Shown: positions 3,583-18,815 of the stretch, piece by piece | Numbering within the stretch: the first letter of the stretch is position 1 | How the letters are laid out: each line of letters begins with the position of its first letter | DNA from: Prevotella sp. E9-3 | Lineage (GTDB): Bacteria; Bacteroidota; Bacteroidia; Bacteroidales; Bacteroidaceae | NCBI RefSeq assembly: GCF_022024015.1 | Contig: NZ_CP091786.1 | Coordinates: 3,162,001-3,226,000, forward strand | Direction of reading: 5' to 3' | Length of the DNA: 64,000 nt | Program-made: the position numbers and the translations under genes | The notes under the pieces: generated by a model | The model's input: the letters and a program-made list of their open reading frames with translations, nothing else | Told to the model about the DNA's origin: nothing | Databases searched by the model: none

Positions 3583-3584
3583 AA

Positions 3585-3613
3585 CCCCTCCCCTAACCCC
3601 TCCCGAAGGAGGG
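3585..3613 (+). repeat. C-rich imperfect palindromic repeat (solitary copy)
   Basis: Directly after the stop codon: two CCCCT blocks, the core AACCCCTCCC and a GGAGGG closing arm. The same family is found at 7007-7035 and forms both ends of the DUF559 unit at 17301-17803. It resembles REP- or MITE-like elements. Confidence 0.7.
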
Positions 3614-7004: not shown

Positions 7005-7006
7005 AA

Positions 7007-7035
7007 CCCCTCCCCTAACCCCTCCCGAGGGAGGG
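7007..7035 (+). repeat. C-rich imperfect palindromic repeat (solitary copy)
   Basis: Nearly identical to the copy at 3585-3613 and also placed right after a stop codon. It is part of a block of about 130 bp shared by the two genes. Confidence 0.7.
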
Positions 7036-16092: not shown

Positions 16093-17298
16093 ATGAGCAA
16101 GAAAAAAGTTGTAGTAGCTTTCAGCGGTGGTTTGGACACATCCTATAATGTGATGTATCTGACAAAGGAGTTAGGTTATGAAGTTTATGCAGCCTGCGCC
16201 AACACAGGCGGTTTTTCGGCCGAACAGTTAAAGAAGAACGAAGAGAACGCCTACAAACTGGGCGCAGTGAAATATGTGACTCTCGATGTTACTCAGGAAT
16301 ATTACGAGAAGTCTCTGAAATATATGATCTTTGGTAATGTGCTGCGCAACAACTGCTACCCCATATCAGTATCCAGCGAGCGCATCTTCCAGGCTATTGC
16401 CATTGCACGCTATGCCAAAGAGATTGGTGCCGATGCCATAGCACACGGTTCAACAGGTGCGGGCAACGACCAGATTCGTTTCGACATGACTTTTCTGGTG
16501 ATGGCTCCCGGCGTGGAAATCATCACACTGACACGCGACCGCAACCTCACTCGTAAGGAAGAGGTGGACTACTTGAACGCCAACGGCTATTTCGCTGACT
16601 TCACCAAGCTGAAATATTCGTATAACGTAGGTATCTGGGGAACCTCTATCTGCGGCGGCGAACTGCTCGACCCCACACAGGGTCTGCCCGAAGAGGCTTA
16701 TCTGAAGCATGTGACCAATTCTGAGAAGGAGTCGCTGCTGAAGATTGAGTTTGACAAAGGTGAGATTGTTGCCGTGAACGGTGAGAAGTTCAGCGATCAT
16801 ATCAAAGCCATCCAGAAGATTGAGGAGATTGGCGCCAGCTATGCCATTGGTCGTGACGCCAACGTGGGCGATACGATTATAGGCATTAAAGGCCGTGTAG
16901 GTTTTGAGGCTGCCGCTCCCAAGCTCATCATTGAGGCTCACCGTTTGCTGGAGAAGTCAACGCTCAGTAAGTGGCAGCAGTACTGGAAGGATCAGGTGGC
17001 CAACTGGTATGGCATGTTCCTCCACGAGAGTCAGTACCTGGAGCCTGTGATGCCCGATATCGAGGCAATGCTCACCTCAAGTCAGCGCAACGTGACCGGC
17101 ACTGCCATTCTGAAGCTTCGTCCTTATGGATTTGAGACGGTGGGCATTGACTCCGCTAACGACCTGACAAAGTCGAAGCTCGGCGAGTATGGCGAGACCC
17201 AGACCGGCTGGACCGCCGACGAGGCAAAGGGCTTCATTAAGGTCAGCTCTACCCCACTGAGAGTGTACTACGGAATTCACAAAGACGAAAAAAGATAA
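16093..17298 (+). CDS. argG: Argininosuccinate synthase
   Basis: A 401-residue full-length enzyme that condenses citrulline and aspartate with ATP. The N-type ATP pyrophosphatase loop is FSGGLDTS (residues 9-16). Further conserved motifs are AHGSTGAGNDQIRFD and SICGGELLD. In the succinylated pathway of Bacteroidetes, citrulline is released before this step. It lies downstream of the GNAT gene and immediately before the DUF559 unit, whose left inverted repeat starts 3 bp after the argG stop codon. Confidence 0.96.
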   Translation: MSKKKVVVAFSGGLDTSYNVMYLTKELGYEVYAACANTGGFSAEQLKKNEENAYKLGAVKYVTLDVTQEYYEKSLKYMIFGNVLRNNCYPISVSSERIFQAIAIARYAKEIGADAIAHGSTGAGNDQIRFDMTFLVMAPGVEIITLTRDRNLTRKEEVDYLNANGYFADFTKLKYSYNVGIWGTSICGGELLDPTQGLPEEAYLKHVTNSEKESLLKIEFDKGEIVAVNGEKFSDHIKAIQKIEEIGASYAIGRDANVGDTIIGIKGRVGFEAAAPKLIIEAHRLLEKSTLSKWQQYWKDQVANWYGMFLHESQYLEPVMPDIEAMLTSSQRNVTGTAILKLRPYGFETVGIDSANDLTKSKLGEYGETQTGWTADEAKGFIKVSSTPLRVYYGIHKDEKR

Positions 17299-17300
17299 AA

Positions 17301-17803
17301 AGCCTACCCCTAACCCCTCCCAAGGGGAAGGGGACTTTTTTGTCAGATGATTTCGTATGAAAGAGCGTAAGAGTTTCAAATACGAAATGGCAGATTCATT
17401 GCTTTACCCTCGTTTAAAAGAGTACGCATCCAAAAACAGAATGAATCCCACTGAAGCAGAGAGCATCTTATGGAATTATCTAAAAGGAAATTTTGGGGGA
17501 TGCCATTTCAGAAGACAACATATAATAGGACCATATATTGCAGACTTCGCTTGTCTTTCACACAGACTCATTATTGAGTTGGATGGCGGGTATCATCAGT
17601 TGCCGGAACAGCAGATAAGTGATAATGAACGCTCTTTGTGGTTAGAAAACAAAGGCTTTTTTATTCTTAGGTTTACCAACGAAGAAGTCATTGGAGCTAC
17701 AGAAATAGTCTTAAACAGAATAAAAAAATTTATCATAAATGAACAATTATAGCAATACTAATATAAATTCTCCCCTCCCCTCGGGAGGGGTTGGGGGTAG
17801 GCT
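17301..17803. mobile_element. DUF559 nuclease unit bounded by inverted repeats
   Basis: A left repeat (17301-17334, starting AGCCTACCCC and containing AACCCCTCCC) and a right repeat (17771-17803) are inverted copies that match at about 31 of 34 positions. Each is also internally palindromic. They enclose one gene, the DUF559 nuclease. The unit fills the argG-argC interval exactly, from 3 bp after argG into codon 22 of argC. Solitary copies of the same repeat family occur at 3585 and 7007. It is likely a small mobile or once-mobile unit; no target duplication is evident. Confidence 0.65.
17357..17752 (+). CDS. DUF559 protein, Vsr-like endonuclease fold
   Basis: A 131-residue protein of the DUF559 family, related to very-short-patch repair and PD-(D/E)XK nucleases. 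The typical core is seen: NPTEAESILWNYL, FRRQHIIGPYIADF, then IIELDGGYHQ with the likely catalytic Asp and Glu. The biochemical function of the family is not settled. It is unrelated to arginine synthesis and is enclosed by inverted repeats. Its last codons overlap the start of argC by 14 nt, so it may affect argC translation. Confidence 0.85.
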   Translation: MKERKSFKYEMADSLLYPRLKEYASKNRMNPTEAESILWNYLKGNFGGCHFRRQHIIGPYIADFACLSHRLIIELDGGYHQLPEQQISDNERSLWLENKGFFILRFTNEEVIGATEIVLNRIKKFIINEQL

Positions 17804-18815
17804 CCGGGTAGGTATTTTAGGTGCTGCTGGCTATACCGGAGGCGAACTTATTCGTTTGTTGCTCAACCACCCCGAGGCAGATATTGTGTTTGCAAACTCT
17901 GAGAGTAATGCCGGCAATCTGGTGAGTGACGTGCATGAAGGACTGATGGGCGATACCGATCTTAGGTTCACCGACCAGATGCCCTTTGACAAGGTTGATG
18001 TGGTGTTCTTCTGCTTCGGTCACGGAAAGAGTGAGGCATTCCTCAAGGAGCACAGCATACCTGAGAACGTGAAGATTATTGATTTGGCACAGGACTTCCG
18101 TATCGCCGGCGACCACGACTATGTATATGGTCTGCCGGAGATTCATCGCGAACAAATTGCCAAAGCTCAACATCTGGCTAACCCTGGCTGCTTTGCCACC
18201 TGCATTCAATTAGGACTGCTGCCACTGGCAAAGACAGGACTGATTACACACGATGTGTCGGTGAATGCCGTTACCGGATCTACTGGTGCTGGACAAAAGC
18301 CAGGAGCAACCACTCACTTCTCATGGCGACAGGATAATTTCTCTACCTACAAACTATTCAGTCACCAGCATCTGCACGAGATTTGTCAAACGATGAACGA
18401 ACTGAAGCCTGCCGATGCGCCTCATGTGGTGGACACACTGAATGAGGGATTCGATGCCAACGGCATAACCATCGACTTCATTCCCTATCGTGGCGATTTC
18501 GCCCGCGGCATCTTCTGTACAGAGGTAGTAACCTTGGACAAGCCCATGGATGCAGAAAAGGTGGTTGCACTGTACAAAGATTTCTACGGTGATGCTGCCT
18601 TTACGCACTATAGCGACAAGGCACCGGACCTGAAGCAAGTGGTGAACACCAACAAAGCACTAGTTCATGTTGATGTGTTCGGGCGTAAGATTGTGGTAAC
18701 CAGCATCATCGACAATCTGTTGAAGGGCGCTGTTGGTCAGGCCGTTCAAAACATGAACATCATGTTCGGACTTGACGAAACCGCCGGACTGAAACTAAAA
18801 GCCTCAGCATTCTAA
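17739..18815 (+). CDS. argC: N-acyl-gamma-glutamyl-phosphate reductase with repeat-encoded N-terminus
   Basis: A 358-residue ArgC that reduces N-acylglutamyl phosphate to the semialdehyde with NADPH. The conserved part starts at RVGILGAAGYTGGELIRLL (about residue 24), the Rossmann motif. The catalytic Cys lies in NPGCFATC. Residues 1-22 are not ArgC-like; SPLPSGGVGGR is encoded by the right inverted repeat of the DUF559 unit. No in-frame ATG or TTG is nearer to the conserved part, so translation must start inside the DUF559 gene. The enzyme probably still works, since no stop or frameshift is seen. Confidence 0.93.
   Translation: MNNYSNTNINSPLPSGGVGGRLRVGILGAAGYTGGELIRLLLNHPEADIVFANSESNAGNLVSDVHEGLMGDTDLRFTDQMPFDKVDVVFFCFGHGKSEAFLKEHSIPENVKIIDLAQDFRIAGDHDYVYGLPEIHREQIAKAQHLANPGCFATCIQLGLLPLAKTGLITHDVSVNAVTGSTGAGQKPGATTHFSWRQDNFSTYKLFSHQHLHEICQTMNELKPADAPHVVDTLNEGFDANGITIDFIPYRGDFARGIFCTEVVTLDKPMDAEKVVALYKDFYGDAAFTHYSDKAPDLKQVVNTNKALVHVDVFGRKIVVTSIIDNLLKGAVGQAVQNMNIMFGLDETAGLKLKASAF

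Follow-up and report, generated by a model that had tools for sequence, protein, structure and literature searches.

Selfish genes residing inside essential genes are, to our knowledge, generally thought to need splicing, in the form of inteins or introns. Among such systems, the nearest characterised fold to that of the nuclease studied here belongs to I-Bth0305I, a mobile intron protein according to its PDB name, which we take to be of the EDxHD/Vsr-like class. Inverted ends are in turn common to the classical TIR transposons and MITEs, and two further kinds of element are palindromic. REPtrons are described in the excerpted text of PMC3733652 as an enzyme gene (RAYT) flanked by palindromic repeats that are found elsewhere in the genome singly or oppositely oriented. 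Rickettsia palindromic elements (RPEs) are palindromic inserts located in frame in unrelated metabolic genes, and the excerpted account (PMC10969869) gives their size as about 150 bp and makes no mention of a nuclease.

The locus analysed here lies in a 64,000-nt stretch of the Prevotella sp. E9-3 genome (contig NZ_CP091786.1, positions 3,162,001 to 3,226,000; the window, hereafter), in which an initial annotation had pointed out a DUF559 gene between inverted repeats as a possible minimal mobile unit. Its features are the following.

16093..17298, plus strand: argG, the upstream host gene (from argG alignment in relatives)
17301..17334, plus strand: left arm, a REP-like palindrome with its C-rich head outward, directly 3′ of the argG stop codon
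17357..17752, plus strand: DUF559 (PF04480) nuclease gene, 131 aa, Pfam E-value 1.2e-30
17739..18815, plus strand: argC as now read; it begins with an ATG at 17739, within the DUF559 3′ end, and has lost its native start codon
17770..17803, minus strand: right arm, the inverted copy, translated as ...SPLPSGGVGGR in the ArgC N-terminus
3583..3613, plus strand: lone repeat copy
7005..7035, plus strand: lone repeat copy

A unit thus consists of a palindromic REP-like arm, a DUF559 nuclease gene and an inverted arm, and appears to work like a homing element, to be built like a REPtron and to insert like an RPE. As in a REPtron, the gene is flanked by inverted REPs that occur singly elsewhere in the genome, but the enzyme is a DUF559 nuclease instead of an HUH tyrosine transposase and insertions are often inside coding frames. 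The parallel with REP elements and their RAYT transposases drawn in the initial annotation holds as an analogy; the E9-3 genome gave no Y1_Tnp match, however, and the fold points to homing endonucleases. The likeness to RPEs, one of description and not of sequence, lies in palindromic inserts in frame in coding genes (such as gltB); unlike RPEs, the larger DUF559 unit carries a nuclease. It also departs from TIR transposons and MITEs in that host codons were replaced and no target-site duplication was present at the one resolved site, in MetH. Finally, the units share with homing elements a known homing-class fold and lateral same-site spread (at L028/L078, see below), and spread into uninterrupted alleles, as with I-Bth0305I, would be implied for them; however, the DUF559 insert is found without a self-splicing intron or intein to house it, translated with its host and flanked by palindromic arms. 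As far as sequence can tell, the unit would therefore be without the defining feature both of a homing element (intron or intein) and of a REPtron (HUH transposase). The open-licence PMC papers searched yielded no description of arm-flanked DUF559 elements.

Within the window, the protein scored 106 bits against PF04480 (cut-off 20.6), which places it in this family, and the DUF559 gene indeed lies between inverted repeats. The arms, annotated as matching at about 31 of 34 positions, stand as an inverted pair and measure 32 nt (17301-17332 and 17772-17803) at 91% complementarity. They had also been called palindromic, and both fold into hairpins (-10.1 kcal/mol for the left arm as DNA), albeit modestly when compared with shuffles (ssDNA z of -2.3 for the left and -2.0 for the right arm). 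With up to two mismatches allowed, the arm core CCTAACCCCTCCC occurs at four sites of the window (3592, 7014, 17309 and, on the minus strand, 17783) versus a mean of 0.62 in shuffled windows, with none of 100 shuffles reaching four, so that the lone copies annotated at 3585 and 7007 are real members of the repeat family. These two copies have common flanks on both sides (the end of a coding frame before and identical bases after them) and therefore look like parts of a duplicated stretch. Overlooked earlier was that translation of the right arm yields the beginning of ArgC: the argC frame (ORF 17739-18815) opens before the DUF559 gene has ended and runs through the right arm into an ArgC core without a start of its own. 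In the window, the element would have entered between argG and argC and taken over the argC start.

Comparison of 30 argC loci revealed this junction to be variable among relatives. Of the 26 loci with argG upstream, five (the window's own among them) carried a DUF559 gene between argG and argC and 21 did not, and the four loci without argG in view were devoid of DUF559 there as well. At all five filled junctions the arm continues into the ArgC core and the sole ATG of the frame precedes the arm. Some empty junctions are compact, with overlapping stop and start codons (L120, L122 and L124). An apparent tRNA gene (by eye) takes the place of DUF559 at L106, L108 and L114, and several other relatives seem to hold a short ORF there, from which the junction may accommodate several kinds of insert. 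The nearest kin of the window nuclease on the DUF559 tree (L016, L025 and L035) are located one junction upstream, before argG, and at L016 the argG start has likewise been lost, with the left arm (by eye) giving the stop of the preceding acetyltransferase gene.

The association of arms and nuclease extended to a sample of 150 genomes of the genus, 87 of which contained PF04480. The 94 loci studied comprised five from E9-3 itself, 29 best matches, 40 loci chosen mainly for long frames and 20 with short frames; 93 of these gave a DUF559 match in our script (L026 and L072 being one place that is present twice), and the weak L005 fell below threshold and was left out. Inverted palindromes flanked DUF559 genes far more often than control stretches, with an arm score of at least 20 in 67 of the 93 loci versus 5 of 1997 control windows taken from the same loci, and a score of at least 14 in 76 versus 21. 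Among the 17 loci scoring below 14, palindromic arms were undetectable in the best local match of five (L014, L069, L071, L080 and L087), and the matched pieces of the other 12 resemble the arm repeat family by eye. A chance origin of the arm arrangement was ruled out by the core shuffles and the control windows.

Moreover, when loci of the same genome were compared (21 genomes with at least two fetched loci each), the right flank that best matched a left flank was its own in 42 of 52 loci. Arm similarity rose with DUF559 identity over 2482 pairs with different site labels from 73 loci (Spearman 0.37, with 0 of 500 permutations as high), and one nuclease clade has reversed arms (9 of 10 measurable), compared with the usual orientation in 61 of 66 others. 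At the genome level, arm cores had a median of 40 in the 77 genomes with a DUF559 match at E ≤1e-25 and of 1 in the other 73 (Mann-Whitney p 2e-15, kinship ignored), the exceptions being 14 of these 73 with at least 10 arm copies and 12 of the 77 with fewer than 5 copies of the counted arm pattern. These data show that arms and nuclease belong together. Site labels were clustered on the DUF559 tree (106 columns, many weak forks), requiring 31 changes versus 65.8 in shuffles and a minimum of 16, and three changes apiece were needed for the gmk, acyl-CoA dehydrogenase, argC and degT labels, so that the elements can be seen both to have persisted at sites and to have moved from one to another. 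The longest downstream ORF was on the DUF559 strand in 78 of 92 loci, and open-frame lengths reached at least 250 in 48 of 150 among the matches listed. Tandem arms were seen at one or both ends of the elements at L017, L030 and L039.

In the E9-3 genome itself (3.73 Mb, one contig), four strong DUF559 matches and a weak one (L005) were found. The strong ones are all located within or between genes read as co-oriented. Apart from the window's own, these are:

L001: 42-nt arms at 93%, between apparent etfA and acyl-CoA dehydrogenase genes
L002: 32-nt arms at 97%, with the frame continuing into SufD
L003: in frame inside a DegT aminotransferase, with palindromes present and no long matching pair

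The arms are also scattered through this genome on their own. With one mismatch allowed, the core CCCYRACCCCTCYC occurred at 55 sites versus 5 for its reversed control, and 13 of the 15 neighbouring arm pairs within 600 nt were convergent, 11 of them with no DUF559 between. The gltB gene (L128, C1:64000-68700) contains eight in-frame arms of alternating orientation, so arranged that four convergent pairs enclose host sequence; all eight are absent from seven relatives. Two of these arms were added in full to the length of the gene, four were partly added and partly substituted for host residues, and the last two took the place of host residues while leaving the length unchanged or nearly so. 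A Vsr endonuclease-like gene (by eye; L139, C1:2335200-2336600) itself has an in-frame arm.

The more striking part, overlooked by the initial annotation, is the insertion of the units in frame into host genes. Pfam showed DegT (L003 and L071) to be split by DUF559, helicases (L072 and L062) to contain it and LeuRS to have it at one position in L050 and at another in L043; in an ABC-F protein (L023) it separates the two ABC domains, and in L038 it follows most of an epimerase domain. Beyond the genus, Pfam located it inside MetRS (L168), IleRS (L178), CinA (L186) and LeuRS (L201). Many further copies sit in MetH, just before the B12-binding segment, as assigned by NCBIfam for L199 and L217 and by eye for the others; L217, from a Flavobacterium MAG, carries two DUF559 insertions at different places of one MetH. 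N-terminal fusions with the arm as linker concern SufD, SpoU, IspF, guanylate kinase, ArgB and RNase H. Sites were used repeatedly at gmk (15 loci), argC and the MetH linker, and separate nuclease clades were found at one and the same site. In each in-gene case read, an open frame spans both arms and the nuclease; all of these cases were recognised by their open frames, a criterion that frame-breaking insertions would escape. With the reading frame preserved, the arms either form Pro/Gly-rich linkers or provide stop and start codons. No intein domain appeared in the Pfam tables of the scanned in-gene cases, and none of the four loci submitted to Rfam (L003, L004, L028 and L247) matched a family.

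Empty sites were read in MetH, for which 110 of 121 genomes from the genus of a Flavobacterium frigidimaris genome gave a match. Of the best 30 loci, one was filled (L247), 28 were readable and empty and one was unreadable; 27 empty sites have one linker length and L266 has a different linker, one residue shorter. In L247, eight linker codons (24 nt) have been replaced by the arms and DUF559, and at this site, the one examined at base level, there is no target-site duplication. Another 16 MetH places, chosen mostly for longer frames, added 10 filled, five empty (two of them already counted) and one unreadable site. The MetH query had one match only in all 11 filled genomes, and the left borders of the filled genes differ by several codons. 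The units are thus patchy between relatives and, where codon resolution was attained (one site), replaced a few host codons without duplicating the target.

Transfer of the element itself was examined by comparing filled sites. In L028 and L078, which are one site in two genomes of the genus, the elements differ at 12 of 594 positions and the flanks at 422 of 2442 (98% versus 83% identity, Fisher p 1.3e-28), as expected for transfer of the element itself. At least one recent sharing between diverged genomes thus involved the element without its surroundings. The element likewise tends to be more alike than its flanks in L001/L082 and L016/L025. Over 218 same-site pairs, it exceeded all measured flanks in 24, some of these 24 aligning poorly; the other 194 show no such excess, so that most shared sites are in keeping with vertical descent, events of long ago or separate arrivals. 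For MetH, the nuclease distance of L217/L277 (0.065) was smaller than the host distance (0.142), and over all pairs host and nuclease distances correlated (Spearman 0.56), in agreement with frequent vertical descent or with exchange among close relatives. In the one MetH case examined for co-conversion, 60-nt windows showed no clear rise in divergence beyond the junction, and no co-conversion was seen past ~20 nt, so that this case gives no homing tract. On the level of sequence, the empty sites and the identity island nevertheless lend good support to the mobility of the DUF559 units, and with it to the minimal mobile unit originally suggested.

The nuclease itself was modelled at a pLDDT of 86 for the DUF559 domain. 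A fold search with this model retrieved the Neisseria NGO0050 endonuclease-like protein as nearest (3hrl; E 1e-6, 39% identity over the aligned part), a protein of the same fold that is represented by a structure only and whose entry title names no mobility. The catalytic domain of I-Bth0305I came second (3r3p, E 3.8e-4) and Vsr further down (0.026), and a profile search agreed (5.8e-31 for 3hrl and 3.7e-6 for 3r3p). Residues D43, E54, D56 and H60 are invariant in an alignment of 22 domain sequences. In four pairs with dS between 0.08 and 0.47, dN/dS ranged from 0.05 to 0.18; the ratio scattered in closer pairs (0, 0.26 and 0.69, the latter two on few changes) and was saturated in wider ones. 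The nuclease is thus under purifying selection, and the DUF559 protein is probably kept active. A known defence gene was set aside as an identity for the window protein, as it gave no match in PADLOC.

We consider that these observations are best explained, with a probability of roughly 0.6, by a selfish homing-type nuclease element with REP-like, linker-encoding ends, of which the window holds one copy of a widespread family. The DUF559 protein, as a relative of I-Bth0305I, would cut or nick the uninterrupted allele, and sometimes new sites, after which repair would copy the element in, with the arms as the ends that are recognised or used in this repair. Cutting of the uninterrupted allele followed by such copying would make same-site spread homing-like, and splicing would be unneeded, as hosts would tolerate the insert in the form of a loop, a terminal domain or a gene coupled to them in translation. 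We give about even odds to the bolder view that this is a new selfish class which invades proteins without splicing. Its palindromic ends would have a double role, as DNA ends for mobility and, once translated, as flexible Pro/Gly linkers or stop/restart signals, which would open core genes such as those for LeuRS, IleRS, MetRS and MetH to colonisation. Its nuclease would also scatter the bare convergent arm pairs in coding sequence, and such pairs would write linker peptides into the proteome.

The bare arms are also what speaks for another view, in which the palindromes are mobile units moved by some other enzyme, as in REP/RAYT systems, and DUF559 is a passenger caught between convergent copies. 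REPs do occur alone and in convergent pairs, 11 of 13 in E9-3 without DUF559, gltB holds four such pairs in frame, and the 14 of 73 genomes with at least 10 copies manage without a strong DUF559 match. However, a search of the E9-3 genome for Y1_Tnp (PF01797, the RAYT family) gave 0 matches, the arms track nuclease clades across sites (one clade even having them reversed), and it is the same kind of gene that is found between the arms in several phyla, so that we regard a passenger role as unlikely. Long persistence at some sites (for instance the 15 gmk loci), purifying selection on the nuclease and its co-orientation with neighbours (78 of 92) would equally suit a host-serving repair or defence domain that has been domesticated as a fusion to metabolic genes, with the repeats being incidental. 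The many hosts of unrelated function, the empty sites in near relatives, the element-only transfer in L028/L078, the presence of separate clades at one site and the window protein's lack of a PADLOC match all argue against such domestication, making it improbable in our judgement.

A selfish nuclease element also accounts better than short-tract homologous recombination for how the units spread. The L028/L078 island could stem from a short imported tract, and L016/L025 has a graded right shoulder, as recombination between related strains might produce without any nuclease activity of the units themselves. Yet, at a resolution of 100 nt, the borders of the L028/L078 island fall approximately at the element ends, and recombination leaves unexplained both the arrival at new, non-homologous sites and the coupling of nuclease and arms; we hold it to be at least as improbable as domestication. 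That the inserts are removed from the RNA as introns, so that the hosts are never interrupted, seems very improbable indeed: some arms may have the length needed for base-pairing around the insert in the RNA, but the frames are open through arms and nuclease (though the cases were found by their open frames), and the four loci tested matched no Rfam family.

If the selfish-element reading is true, it would explain many Bacteroidota "endonuclease domain" genes and fusions of obscure function, as well as the recurrent Pro/Gly-rich peptides in the fusions found. Core enzymes seem to tolerate an in-frame nuclease domain whose ends double as linkers. Domain insertion by mobile DNA thereby becomes open to direct testing, and the units may be of use as a natural means of inserting domains in frame.

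Similar units are widespread in Bacteroidota and were also found in an Ignavibacterium record, four alphaproteobacterial records and one Deinococcus record. A scan of named GTDB species genomes confirmed at least 583 DUF559 stretches, the best 80 of which are, by title, mainly from the Prevotella group, Flavobacteriaceae, Chitinophagales, Cytophagales and Ignavibacterium; in this wider named set, an arm score of at least 20 was reached by 43 of 81 matches versus 4 of 1533 controls. The MetH of L198, titled Nitrotoga, is closest to a Flavobacterium-group one among those compared, and its label may reflect contamination. In a viral collection (L293-L350), 14 of 58 DUF559-like loci scored at least 20; the best have long GC-rich inverted palindromes, several being very similar and in small contigs, and these contigs may be mis-binned bacterial DNA. 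Of 41 plasmid records with a match, 10 (non-Bacteroidota) were fetched, and strong arms were absent from five and reached a score of at least 20 in the other five, which belong to Sphingomonas, Qipengyuania, Azospirillum lipoferum, Sphingobium and Deinococcus. The Sphingomonas plasmid unit is located between sufB and sufC, and that of Deinococcus between paaD and paaZ.
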